The notes beneath the pieces were generated by a model, which saw nothing but the letters and a program-made list of their open reading frames with translations, searched no databases and had not been told where the DNA came from. From positions 62,001 to 126,000 of the forward strand of contig NZ_PGLR01000005.1 in NCBI RefSeq assembly GCF_002803095.1: a stretch of DNA of 64,000 nt, in the 5' to 3' direction. Shown here piece by piece: positions 45,684-53,772 of this stretch; the stretch's first letter is position 1, and every line of letters starts with the position of its first letter. A program made the translations under genes and the position numbers. Origin of the DNA: Pseudomonas sp. ZH-FAD (GTDB taxonomy: Bacteria > Pseudomonadota > Gammaproteobacteria > Pseudomonadales > Pseudomonadaceae).

Positions 45684-45721
45684 CTGGCCCTACGGCCAAC
45701 GACCGCTTTGTTTCTAAGGTG
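45684..45721 (+). promoter_or_regulatory. Bipartite motif upstream of the aminotransferase gene
   Basis: CTGGCCCTA (45684-45692), exactly 20 bases, then TCTAAGGTG (45713-45721). The same pair with the same spacing occurs before the transporter operon at 48889. TCTAAG could serve as a weak -10, with CTGGCCCTA at the activator position near -35. Confidence 0.55.
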
Positions 45722-45753
45722 CAGCCATCCGCAACGGCCAGCCCGAGGTCATC

Positions 45754-47073
45754 ATGAGCACACCGATCAGCAACCAGTACGTCCACGATCTGGATCGCCA
45801 GCACGTCTTCCATTCCTGGTCGACCCAGGGCGCCCTCAACCCGCTGGTGATCGCCGGTGGCGAGGGCTGCACGCTGTGGGACTACGACGGCAAACGCTAC
45901 CTCGATTTCAGCAGCCAACTGGTCAACACCAATATCGGCCACCAGCACCCGAAGGTCATCGCCGCCATCCAGGAACAGGCCGGCAGCCTGGTGACCATCG
46001 CCCCAGCCACCGCCAACCTGATGCGTGGCGAAGCGGCCAAGCGCATTCTCGCCCGCGCGCCGGCCGGTTTCTCCAAGGTGTTCTTCACCAACGCCGGGGC
46101 CGATGCCAACGAGAACGCCATGCGCATGGCACGCCTATACACCGGCCGCGACAAGATCCTCTCCGCCTACCGCTCCTACCATGGCAGCACCGGCGCGGCC
46201 ATCGTCGCCACCGGTGATCCACGCCGCGTGCCCAACGAATACGCCCGTGGCCATGTGCACTTCTTCAACCCCTACCTGTACCGCACCGAGTTCAATTCGG
46301 CGAACGAAGAAGAAGAATGCGCGCGTGCCCTGCAGCACCTGCGCCGGGTCATCGAGTGCGAGGGGCCGGGCGCCATCGCCGCCATCCTGCTGGAGAGCAT
46401 CCCCGGCACCGCCGGCATTCTGGTACCGCCGAAAGGTTACATGCAGGGTGTACGCAAATTGGCCGACGAGTTCGGCATCCTGCTCATCCTCGATGAAGTG
46501 ATGGCCGGTTTCGGCCGTACCGGCTCCTGGCTGGCGCTGGAGCATTTCGATGTGGTGCCGGACCTGATCGTCTTCGCCAAGGGTGTCAATTCCGGCTACG
46601 TGCCAGCGGGCGGGGTGATGATTTCCAAGCCGATCTGCGAGCACTTCGACACAAACTTCTTCCCCGGCGGGCTGACCTACTCCGGCCACCCGCTGGCCAT
46701 GGCCGCCATCGTCGCCACCCTGGATGCGATGACCGAGGAAGGTATGGTGGAGAATGCCCGTGACATCGGCGCCCAGGTGCTCGGCCCGGGCCTGAAGAAA
46801 CTGGCGGAACGCTACACGATGATCGGCGAAGCGCGTGGCGTCGGCCTGTTCTGGGCGCTGGAGTTCGTCAGCGATGAGCAGAAGAAGACGCCAATGCCGG
46901 CGCCGGTGATGCAGGAGATGAAGGCGGCGCTGACCGCGCGCGGGCTGCTCACCTTCGTGGTGGAGAACCGCATCCACGTGGTGCCGCCGTGCATCGTCAG
47001 CGCCGCGCAGGTGAACGAGGCGCTGGCGATCTTCGACGAGGTGTTCGCCCTGTTCGCGCCGCGTTTCGGCTGA
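45754..47073 (+). CDS. toa: Class III aminotransferase, probable taurine aminotransferase
   Basis: PLP-dependent omega-aminotransferase of 439 residues. The Schiff-base lysine is Lys276 in VFAKGVNSGYVPAGG, and Asp247 in LLILDEVMAGFGRTG holds the pyridine nitrogen. FTNAGADANENAMRMARLYTGR and SYHGSTGAA are family motifs. The family alone does not fix the substrate. The neighbours (MocR regulator, two-permease amino-acid-type ABC importer, SDR, TauE-type exporter) match the set described for taurine-nitrogen assimilation with isethionate release, in which taurine:2-oxoglutarate aminotransferase (Toa) makes sulfoacetaldehyde. A taurine:pyruvate enzyme or another amine donor remains possible. Confidence 0.65.
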   Translation: MSTPISNQYVHDLDRQHVFHSWSTQGALNPLVIAGGEGCTLWDYDGKRYLDFSSQLVNTNIGHQHPKVIAAIQEQAGSLVTIAPATANLMRGEAAKRILARAPAGFSKVFFTNAGADANENAMRMARLYTGRDKILSAYRSYHGSTGAAIVATGDPRRVPNEYARGHVHFFNPYLYRTEFNSANEEEECARALQHLRRVIECEGPGAIAAILLESIPGTAGILVPPKGYMQGVRKLADEFGILLILDEVMAGFGRTGSWLALEHFDVVPDLIVFAKGVNSGYVPAGGVMISKPICEHFDTNFFPGGLTYSGHPLAMAAIVATLDAMTEEGMVENARDIGAQVLGPGLKKLAERYTMIGEARGVGLFWALEFVSDEQKKTPMPAPVMQEMKAALTARGLLTFVVENRIHVVPPCIVSAAQVNEALAIFDEVFALFAPRFG

Positions 47074-47088
47074 CACCACACAATACTT

Positions 47089-47307
47089 GTAGGAGCCCGC
47101 TTGCGGGCGATCCGGGCAAATGAATCGCCGGCAAGCCGGCTCCTACGGCCCCGTCCAACACCCGTAGCCCGGATGAAATCCGGGGCTTTACGACCCGTTA
47201 TGGTTTCCCGGATTTCATCCGGGCTACGGCTTTGCCTGATAACCGTCGCGGCTGAAGCCCCTCCCACAGATGCCCCGTAGCAATGTGGGAGGGGCTTCAG
47301 CCGCGAC
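47089..47307. repeat. Three different palindromic elements in tandem
   Basis: First, GTAGGAGCCCGC...GGCTCCTAC (47089-47146), a REP-like pair. Second, GTAGCCCGGATG...CATCCGGGCTAC (47164-47226). Third, a perfect 24-bp-arm inverted repeat (47245-47268 with 47284-47307) containing GCTGAAGCCCCTCCCACA. They fill the 240 bp between convergent genes and probably terminate both. Confidence 0.88.
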
Positions 47308-47313
47308 CGCTCT

Positions 47314-51368: not shown

Positions 51369-52119
51369 CGTACCTGCGGTACAGATCGACAATCTTTCCA
51401 AGAGTTTCGACGGCGTCGAAGTGCTGCGCGACATCTCGCTGACCGTGAACAAGGGCGAAGTGGTCAGCGTGCTGGGATCGTCCGGCTCGGGCAAATCCAC
51501 CCTGCTGCGCTGCATCAGCTGGCTCGAAGAGCCGGATCGCGGCAGTATTCACATCGCCGGCCAGCGCATCGGCGTCGACGTCCAGGGCAAGCGCATGAAC
51601 AACCGCGACCTGGCGGCGATTCGCGCCAAGACCGGCATGGTGTTCCAGAGTTTCAACCTGTGGCCGCACCTGAACGTGCTGCAGAACGTCATGGAAGCAC
51701 CGATGCAGGTGAAGAAGATGCGCAAGGACGAGGCCCGCGCCATCGCCCAGACGCTGCTGGAAAAGGTCGGCATGGAACAGAAGGCCGAGGCCTTTCCCTA
51801 CACCCTTTCCGGTGGACAGAAGCAGCGCGTGGCAATCGCCCGCGCCCTGGCCATGAGCCCCGAGGTGATCCTCTTCGACGAGCCAACTTCGGCACTCGAC
51901 CCGGAGCGGGTCGGCGAAGTGCTGACGGTGATGAAGAACCTCTCCAGCGAGGGCTACACCATGATCGTGGTCACCCACGAAATGGAATTCGCCCGCGCGG
52001 TATCGGACCAGGTGGTGTTCCTGGAAAAGGGCCTGTTGATCGAGAAATCCGCACCGGAGAAGTTCTTCACCAACCCGGAAACCGAACGCGTGCGCAAGTT
52101 CCTCGAACTGTCCGCATGA
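51361..52119 (+). CDS. Amino-acid-type ABC transporter ATPase
   Basis: A 252-residue GlnQ/HisP-type ATPase. Walker [10 protein letters not shown], signature [15 protein letters not shown], Walker [15 protein letters not shown], and the switch histidine in VVTHEMEF. Completes an importer with one binding protein, two permeases and one ATPase, the TauAB1B2C-like composition described for the isethionate pathway. Confidence 0.93.
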
Positions 52120-52174
52120 CCCTCGCCGGCACGCAGCCGGCGAGCCAACCGCTAGTAACGAAACGAGGTTATCC

Positions 52175-52933
52175 ATGAGCAAGGTGGCATTCATCACAGG
52201 CGCGACATCCGGTTTCGGCCGCGCCACAGCACGACGCTTCGCCGAGGCCGGCTGGACCCTGGTACTCAGCGGCCGACGCCTGGAGCGCCTGGAAGAGCTG
52301 AAGACCGAACTGCAGGACAAGGTGCCGGTGCACATCGCCGCGCTCGACGTGCGTGATGCGGCAGCAGTGAAGGCGCTGGTCGACGGCCTGCAAGCGCCTT
52401 TCGACCGTATCGACGTGCTGGTCAACAACGCCGGCCTGGCCCTGGCCCCGGAGGCTGCGCAGAAGGTCGCCCTGGAAGACTGGCACACCATGATCGACAC
52501 CAACGTCACCGGCCTGGTCAATGTCACCCATGCGGTGCTGCCCAAGCTGCTGGCCATCGGCAAGGGCACCAGCATCATCAACATCGGCTCTGTGGCCGGC
52601 GAATGGCCCTACCCGGGCGGCCACGTGTACGGCGCCACCAAGGCCTTCGTCAAACAGTTCAGCTTCAACCTGCGTTGCGACCTGGTGTCCACCGGCGTGC
52701 GCGTCACCGACATCGCGCCGGGCATGGCCGAGACCGAGTTCACCCTGGTGCGTACCAAGGGCAACCAGGCCGCCTCCGACGCGCTGTACGGCAGCACCAC
52801 GCCGCTGACCGCCGAGGACATCGCCGAGCAGATTTTCTACGTCGCTACCCTGCCGGACCACATCAACATCAACCGCCTGGAAATCATGCCGAGCCGCCAG
52901 GCCTGGTCACCCTTCGCCATCGACCGCGATTGA
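52175..52933 (+). CDS. isfD: Short-chain dehydrogenase, probable sulfoacetaldehyde reductase
   Basis: A 252-residue SDR of the YdfG-like group. The cofactor loop TGATSGFG (about 9-16) and Arg34-Arg35 after the second strand favour NADPH. NNAG is present, and the catalytic triad is Ser139, Tyr152 and Lys156 (VYGATKAF). The C-terminal [14 protein letters not shown] matches YdfG/IsfD-type enzymes. It ends the transporter operon 55 bp after the ATPase gene. In the isethionate pathway IsfD reduces sulfoacetaldehyde to isethionate. YdfG relatives reduce 3-hydroxy acids and malonic semialdehyde, so the substrate is inferred from context. Confidence 0.65.
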
Positions 52934-52994
52934 AGGACGCGCCAGACATGGCGCCTCGCAGGGCGGGTTACGGCGATCGCGACCGAACCCGCCC

Positions 52995-53065
52995 GTAGGG
53001 TGCGCCGTGCGCACCGCTGCGATCCCGCAACTACGGTTCTTCTCGGTGCGCGCAGCGCACCCTAC
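52995..53065. repeat. GTAGGGTGCGCC REP-like pair
   Basis: GTAGGGTGCGCCGTGCGC (52995-53012) faces GGTGCGCGCAGCGCACC-CTAC (53045-53065). It lies between the convergent SDR and exporter genes and overlaps the exporter's stop codon. Confidence 0.87.
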
Positions 53066-53772
53066 AGGATCGCCTTCAGCAGGCTGCCCAGCGACAACAG
53101 CACCAGCAACACTCCGACCAGCACCCGCAACGACAACGGCTGCCAGCGCGGATGCAGCCACTGGCCGAGCAGGTTACCGGCCAGCGCCGGCAATGCCAGC
53201 TCCAGCGCTAGCCGCCACAGCGCGCCGCTCAGCACACCCGCGACACCCAGCCCGATCAGCGCAGCGCCACTGCTGGCGAGGAAGAACAGCACCGCCGTGC
53301 CGCGTAACTGACGCGCATCGAGGCCGCTGCGCAGCAGGTAGATCATCAATGGCGGGCCGCCGGCCGAGGCCAGGGTGGTCGCCAGTCCGGATGCCAGCCC
53401 TGCCAACCAGGCCATGCCCTGGCCCACCGGTGTGGCGACGGACGGACGCCACAACACCAGCACGCCACCGCACAAACAAAGCACCGCCACCAGCGGTGCC
53501 ATGATGTGGGCCGGCAGCCACAGCAACACCCAAGCGCCCAGCGGCACGGCCAGCAGCATGCCTATCAGCAGGCGCCCCAGCACACGCCCATGAACGGCAC
53601 GCAACGCCGCCGGCCATAACGTCACGCTGCACGCCACATCGAGAATCAGCGCCACCGGCACGGCCTCGGCCGGCGGCAGTCGCAACATCAGTCCGAGCGC
53701 CATCAACATGGCAAAACCGAAGCCGCTGTAGCCGCGCACCAGGCCTGCGGCGAAGGCGATAAAGGTGAACAT
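53062..53772 (-). CDS. isfE: TauE/SafE family exporter, probable isethionate exporter
   Basis: Inner-membrane protein of 236 residues with seven or eight hydrophobic helices and the TauE/SafE pattern: an early [15 protein letters not shown] and a repeat-like [17 protein letters not shown]. Members are proposed to export sulfite or organosulfonates. Its place beside the SDR suggests export of isethionate, the end product here. It is convergent with the SDR gene and divergent from ureD, so its own promoter lies in the 180-bp region shared with ureD. Confidence 0.65.

Follow-up and report, generated by a model that had tools for sequence, protein, structure and literature searches.

The locus studied here raises the question of what a compact group of transport, aminotransferase and reductase genes is doing between the urea-uptake gene urtE and the urease gene ureD of Pseudomonas sp. 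ZH-FAD. The genes lie in a stretch of 64,000 nucleotides of contig NZ_PGLR01000005.1 (hereafter the window), taken from a 6.18 Mb assembly whose completeness is rated 100%. The cluster very probably serves for the use of taurine as a nitrogen source only, the rest of the molecule being discarded as isethionate. This interpretation had been proposed in a preliminary description of the window and is supported by the trees of the reductase and the aminotransferase, the identity of the exporter, TauR-like operators and the lack of any Xsc match over the cut-off. The same description had listed a class III aminotransferase, a MocR-type regulator, an importer, a short-chain dehydrogenase/reductase (SDR) and a TauE-type protein. 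All of these were recovered by Pfam and NCBIfam matches and their position between the two flanks was confirmed. The list is right for eight genes but one gene short on the left, where a class II aldolase-like gene had been omitted, and nine cluster genes separate urtE from ureD.

In the proposed pathway taurine would be imported by the family 3 solute-binding protein, the two permeases and the ATPase, a complete set which has counterparts in Halomonadaceae clusters. Toa would then transfer the amino group of taurine to 2-oxoglutarate, yielding glutamate and sulfoacetaldehyde, and IsfD would reduce the reactive sulfoacetaldehyde with NADPH to isethionate, which the TauE-family protein would export. 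The TauR-like MocR regulator would control the importer-IsfD operon, Toa and the aldolase-like gene through one type of direct-repeat operator; the product of the last gene could perhaps offer a second means of removing sulfoacetaldehyde, and the siting beside the urea genes would group nitrogen-scavenging functions. The substrate, the product, the direction of transport, the ligand of the regulator, its binding to the sites and the role of the aldolase-like protein are what we infer here from sequence comparison.

The best solved structure for the SDR is the sulfoacetaldehyde reductase 6ixj (409 bits), followed at 315 bits by 2nwq, annotated as a "probable short-chain dehydrogenase". We take 2nwq to be a Pseudomonas aeruginosa protein and 3asu, another structure compared, to be YdfG of Escherichia coli. 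Identity is 184/251 (73.3%) to 6ixj and 149/252 (59.1%) to the paralogue 2nwq. A phylogeny had been put forward earlier as a check on both enzymes. In the SDR tree (95 rows; the long branch of 3asu was flagged, the root serves for drawing only and many more paralogues of the genus were left out) the window copy falls into an 80-row clade, with support of 99/97, which also holds 6ixj and SDRs from loci of Chromohalobacter, Salinicola, Halomonas and Kluyvera. Outside this clade are 14 paralogue-type rows, namely 2nwq and 13 paralogues of the genus. The catalytic residues named earlier, Ser139, Tyr152 and Lys156, were confirmed. Moreover Tyr146, Gln242 and Phe247 align, with an offset of two read from the alignment, with the sulfonate-site residues Tyr148, Gln244 and Phe249 given for the Klebsiella oxytoca IsfD of 6ixj in the excerpted text of PMC12133307. 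As a test of IsfD identity these residues were rejected, since 2nwq has all three and 3asu has the tyrosine and the glutamine. In a sample of 149 genomes of the genus, drawn evenly from a larger group, the SDR has a match at 1e-90 in 105, a copy of at least 75% identity in 15, and remaining matches at 59% or below.

The aminotransferase gives a similar picture. Its best match in the PDB is 6jix, a taurine:2-oxoglutarate aminotransferase, at 371.8 bits, 121 bits ahead of the next (251). In a tree of 91 rows, made by a quick method with SH-aLRT support and without bootstrap, the window copy stands in a 77-row group of copies from isf-type clusters (SH-aLRT 93). Relatives from another gene setting form a separate 6-row group (SH-aLRT 99). 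Matches at 1e-120 were found in 8 of the 149 genomes. Two of these (G009 and G076) have a copy at 74-75% in the different setting and also a second, more distant aminotransferase.

The putative exporter is 49.1% identical to the cluster exporter of Chromohalobacter nigrandesensis. TauE matches at 1e-10 occur in 6/149 genomes (G000, G063, G077, G091, G119 and G132), and all six belong both to the 8 genomes with Toa and to the 15 that have an IsfD-clade SDR. The lack of a sulfoacetaldehyde acetyltransferase (Xsc), noted earlier for this region, holds for the whole assembly, in which the best match to the Xsc model reaches 333.5 bits against a cut-off of 676.4 and, by our own reading of its sequence, looks like an acetolactate synthase. 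Two TauD-family genes are present elsewhere in the genome, the better scoring 238.3 bits against the taurine dioxygenase model, whose cut-off of 313 it does not reach. A separate sulfur route through such a TauD-like gene outside the cluster is possible.

The recurrence of the cluster was followed in a second sample, the best 80 of 394 aminotransferase relatives found by scanning genome contigs with the aminotransferase alignment, each locus covering up to 10 kb on each side of the aminotransferase and several ending early at contig ends. The two samples are not independent, since four members are the same (L069/G132, L076/G091, L081/G119 and L106/G076). The Pseudomonadaceae loci number 28 (L061-L088, where L069 is a metagenome bin labelled only Gammaproteobacteria) and hold the SDR in 22 cases, TauE in 20, MocR in 24, the binding protein in 22, urtE in 20 and ureD in 12, some of the misses being contig or locus ends (L069, L083). 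In the 47 loci of other families the SDR (at least 70%) was found in 43, TauE (at least 40%) in 20, MocR in 39 and the binding protein in 35. The remaining five of the 80 are of the other-setting type and have none of the aldolase-like gene, SDR, TauE, MocR or binding protein at the thresholds used. The identical order recurs in other species, so the gene set is not a chance assembly. The closest named relatives in both trees are P. chengduensis, P. sediminis, P. toyotomiensis, P. composti, P. oleovorans and Pseudomonas sp. 8O. In L065 (P. oleovorans DSM 1045) the binding protein and both permeases are unmatched, the MocR match covers about 62% of the length and the aldolase-like match is about 100 bases shorter; either the copy is decaying or the assembly is at fault.

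A direct repeat is common to the control regions of the cluster. The pattern, CTGNCC-N16-CTGNCCYTA, was obtained from an alignment of the two divergent intergenic regions over the Pseudomonadaceae loci, and mismatches were counted over its 13 fixed positions as the best score anywhere in a region on the given strand. Only two exact copies exist in the 6.18 Mb genome, both in the cluster, one facing Toa and one facing the importer operon, and CTAAGGTG follows both at equal distance. Among the 28 Pseudomonadaceae loci the site facing Toa has no mismatch in 22, one in 5 and two in 1, and the site facing the aldolase-like gene none in 5, one in 14 and two in 9; the site facing the binding protein is exact in 15 of 21 loci and has one mismatch in the other 6. 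Toward MocR the best score is 3 to 6 mismatches in 21/21 loci, similar to shuffles. Letter shuffles give two mismatches or fewer in at most 0.7% of trials, a figure to be read with the facts that the pattern was derived from the regions that were scored and that the shuffles preserve base composition only. One-mismatch sites in the genome number 12, near the 8 given by the reversed pattern as a control, and the site facing the aldolase-like gene is therefore argued from its conservation and its place; at up to three mismatches the window holds 40 sites where 38.6 are expected, which is chance level. Outside Pseudomonadaceae, an exact match stands about 140 bases before Toa in seven Halomonas/Vreelandella loci and near MocR in L140 (L089-L140 scanned).

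The TauR box given in the part of PMC5320631 available to us is CTGGACYTAA in direct repeats. The second box before Toa, CTGGCCCTAC, matches it at 8 of 10 positions by hand count. The exact consensus was tried as the operator of the cluster and rejected, a related direct repeat being present in its place. Control by sigma-54 was also rejected; the sole match to a loose pattern in the window is at 32355, distant from the cluster.

The gene which the preliminary description had missed encodes a class II aldolase/adducin-like protein. The residues His117, His119 and His182, which we take to be metal (zinc) ligands, are invariant in 19/19 aligned sequences, and Glu95 is nearly invariant, at a spacing other than that of the catalytic glutamate of FucA. 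The nearest solved structures are 3ocr (the best, at 114.5 bits), 9n43, 4xxf, TqaM (9m09) and NovR (9ryg). With 3ocr, 4xxf, TqaM and NovR the protein has in common the fold family and the metal-binding histidines, but at this distance they are too remote to assign a reaction to it. NovR-type proteins are iron oxygenases.

Is this gene part of the taurine system? It could instead be a bystander belonging to the urea island, or to a pathway of its own with a HAD phosphatase, and have no taurine role. In the three annotated loci (L143, L145 and L146) of the eight fetched, the 61-69% homologues found elsewhere in the genus adjoin a HAD hydrolase gene, with LysR or MFS transporter genes and not taurine genes as other neighbours, and the gene is absent from all 47 loci of other families. 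Nevertheless, it is present in 28/28 Pseudomonadaceae loci, including eight which have no urtE nearby, and copies of at least 84% occur in exactly the six of the 149 genomes that carry Toa, the SDR and TauE. Moreover a TauR-like site lies on its strand in all 28 loci, whereas upstream of seven of the eight fetched homologues, or of their neighbour, the best score is 3 to 5 mismatches (L147 was left out). We consider the bystander explanation unlikely. Since the homologues elsewhere adjoin a HAD hydrolase and not taurine genes, this copy appears to have been drawn into the taurine regulon of Pseudomonadaceae.

A second unusual characteristic is that the IsfD-clade reductase can be found alone. 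In six genomes (G008, G112, G146, G001, G013 and G028; loci L039, L040, L042, L043, L046 and L047) an intact copy lies beside urtE, and genome-wide searches of these six gave no Toa (1e-120), TauE (1e-10), binding protein (1e-40) or aldolase-like gene (1e-40). The lone SDRs stand in at least three places of the tree, scattered among rows with a whole cluster. Repeated loss explains this most simply, with support below 90 at some of the forks involved. Pairwise dN/dS is 0.033 for G013-G028, which is the cleanest case, 0.036 for G146-G001, a pair that spans the whole-cluster relative L075, and 0.090 for G008-G112, so that purifying selection appears to act on the lone reductase. As it is kept intact in this way and without the rest of the pathway, the enzyme may serve beyond taurine. 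In G028 (L047:5664-9426) an amino acid permease gene and the EutB and EutC genes of ethanolamine ammonia-lyase adjoin the lone SDR, and nitrogen-scavenging genes may tend to collect on the urtE side. In a further three genomes, G129, G148 and G043, an SDR at 75-80% stands away from the urt genes, with no Toa at 1e-120.

For these two features one may suppose that sulfoacetaldehyde has two exits in the Pseudomonadaceae form, one to isethionate and one through the TauR-controlled aldolase-like enzyme, which would join the aldehyde to a small carbonyl or open it with oxygen, and, as a separate matter, that IsfD has a second job tied to urea uptake. We offer this tentatively and hold it to be rather doubtful; to our knowledge no sulfonate reaction of such a kind belongs to the class II aldolase-like family. 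If the second exit exists, taurine carbon or sulfur would not be wholly discarded, and a urea-linked job of IsfD would explain why it alone is retained beside urtE in lineages lacking the pathway.

Several observations weigh against the taurine-isethionate assignment. The active-site residues checked in the SDR are largely common to paralogues that are not IsfD and do not discriminate, and the survival of the SDR alone in the six genomes means that its role may be independent of taurine. The MocR protein passes the NCBIfam cut-off for PdxR (336.7 against 320 bits), for which reason TauR is a name given by context. The exact CTGGACYTAA consensus is absent from the cluster, and of the 52 loci scanned outside L061-L088 only 8 hold an exact match to the operator pattern, the other 44, including those of Chromohalobacter, having no exact match. 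Finally, relatives of Toa at 73-75% occur in another gene setting, and such an identity does not fix the substrate.

The last point bears on an alternative in which the nitrogen comes from beta-alanine or another omega-amino acid and the resulting malonic semialdehyde would be reduced by a YdfG-like SDR to 3-hydroxypropionate and exported. The best NCBIfam model for the SDR is indeed YdfG, although at 306.6 bits it stays below the cut-off of 411, and the persistence of the SDR without the remaining cluster would also agree with it. In the two annotated loci (L057 and L058, by Pfam) the 73-75% relative adjoins LysR and aldehyde dehydrogenase genes, presumably the beta-alanine (bau) arrangement. 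The SDR, however, is placed in the IsfD clade and not with the 2nwq-type paralogues, the window aminotransferase is set apart from its other-setting relatives in the tree, and TauE and TauR-like operators accompany the cluster. We retain the beta-alanine route, because of these relatives in a different setting, at low weight and regard it as very improbable. The different setting was seen in L057, L058, L099, L101, L102, L103 and L106, and no IsfD-clade SDR is in these loci.

That TauE belongs to the urea island, leaving the taurine cluster with no exporter of its own, is hardly credible and was rejected: G119 does have TauE beside ureD with the SDR and Toa on other contigs, but TauE accompanies the cluster in G091, where ureD is on another contig, and likewise in loci of P. 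defluvii, P. laurentiana, P. matsuisoli and P. alkylphenolica (all of these loci lacking ureD and any urtE of at least 80%), it is found in 20 of the 47 other-family loci, and it has no match at 1e-10 in G012, G027 and G060, where urtE and ureD are adjacent.

For the use of taurine nitrogen with loss of isethionate, there remains the question of how the cluster came to lie among urea genes. The preliminary description had called it inserted, suggesting a recent event. This is not borne out, and recent insertion was rejected as the main account, because 20/28 Pseudomonadaceae loci hold the place beside urtE. Four loci (L079, L081, L084 and L087) retain beside urtE only the aldolase-Toa pair. 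G119 has the aldolase-like gene and Toa after urtE, TauE by ureD and the block of regulator, importer and SDR elsewhere, an arrangement that would result from the later breakage of an ancestral urtE-[cluster]-ureD block. The three genus members in which urtE and ureD adjoin have no cluster between them. The best explanation of these sequences is that the place beside the urea genes is of long standing in this part of Pseudomonas and that the cluster was later broken or trimmed in several lineages. The features of the locus are collected in Table 1.

Table 1. Genes and TauR-like direct repeats from urtE to ureD, in positions of the window
Feature	Position	Strand	Basis or remark
urtE	43857-44633	+	ABC_tran; closes the urtABCDE order; flank on the urea-uptake side
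Class II aldolase/adducin-like gene	44786-45571	-	Pfam PF00596, 7.9e-43; NCBIfam PRK06486, 407.8 bits (cut-off 269)
TauR-like direct repeat facing the aldolase-like gene	45626-45656	-	1 mismatch
TauR-like direct repeat facing Toa	45662-45692	+	Exact
Toa, predicted taurine:2-oxoglutarate aminotransferase (class III)	45754-47073	+	Best PDB match 6jix; tree
MocR-type regulator, TauR by context	47314-48813	-	Pfam GntR and Aminotran_1_2
TauR-like direct repeat facing the importer operon	48867-48897	+	Exact
Putative taurine-binding protein, family 3 solute-binding (SBP_bac_3)	48987-49868	+	Pfam PF00497
Importer permease 1	50054-50695	+	Pfam PF00528
Importer permease 2	50706-51368	+	Pfam PF00528
Importer ATPase	51340-52119	+	Pfam PF00005
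IsfD, predicted NADPH-type sulfoacetaldehyde reductase (SDR)	52175-52933	+	73.3% to KoIsfD 6ixj; tree
IsfE, TauE/SafE family, putative isethionate exporter	53062-53772	-	Pfam PF01925, 2.5e-29
ureD	53953-54789	+	Pfam PF01774, 6.2e-57; flank on the urease side

Further along the urease side, at 55138-56182 on the forward strand, a tandem pair of GNAT acetyltransferase genes is located between ureA and ureB. The second of the pair is without a match in some relatives, for example in L037 and L038.

Taken as a taurine-nitrogen pathway, the system would place an isethionate-forming taurine route, with its operator and full gene list, in a range of Pseudomonas and Stutzerimonas, and isethionate from such bacteria could feed other isethionate users. 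The conserved aldolase-like gene stands as an unexplained step, and the lone IsfD genes offer a natural way to probe further roles of the reductase. In the literature retrieved, which consists mostly of titles and the openings of abstracts and does not imply absence from print, no report was evident of this cluster, of a class II aldolase in the pathway, or of the pathway with Pseudomonas and urea.

Among solved proteins, the IsfD of K. oxytoca TauN1 (6ixj) is the close counterpart of the SDR, with the identity given above, a common clade and the same catalytic and sulfonate-site residues. The 6jix aminotransferase is the best solved structure for Toa and yet remote, on a long branch of the tree; its source is presumably Bilophila wadsworthia. 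In B. wadsworthia taurine use continues to sulfite with SarD and IslA, according to the consulted portion of PMC6616044.

The TauR regulons of Proteobacteria likewise combine a MocR regulator with a direct-repeat operator of similar box, as described in the available part of PMC5320631, whose section on them covers the Xsc and TauD routes and whose main text has neither "isethionate" nor "aldolase". In the C. nigrandesensis locus (L114:7523-16980) TauE and Toa are separated by a peroxidase gene, and MocR and the binding protein by symporter, amidohydrolase and CobW genes; the amidohydrolase and CobW we take to be the families COG1574 and COG523. Both families are included in TauR regulons in that same part of PMC5320631.

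Gene sets similar to the one described here occur in loci of Chromohalobacter, Salinicola, Halomonas and Kluyvera. Those of Kluyvera gave no TauE match, two of them ending near the cluster. The nearest known system is that of Chromohalobacter salexigens, comprising TauR, TauAB1B2C, Toa, IsfD and IsfE, component names that come from the preliminary description and partly from PMC6616044. Counterparts of all parts were found in six Chromohalobacter loci fetched, C. salexigens itself not being among them, with identities of 74-75% for Toa, 72-74% for the SDR, 59-60% for MocR, 58-61% for the binding protein and 48-52% for TauE. The parts of the Pseudomonadaceae cluster are orthologous to those of known isf-type clusters, and its operator is conserved among the Pseudomonadaceae loci. 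Its order differs from that of Chromohalobacter, it has the added aldolase-like gene with an operator, and it is often beside urt/ure genes. The core of the pathway is already known, and the Pseudomonadaceae form is a modest variant of it, marked by the aldolase-like gene with its like operator, the place in the urea island and the repeated survival of IsfD alone.

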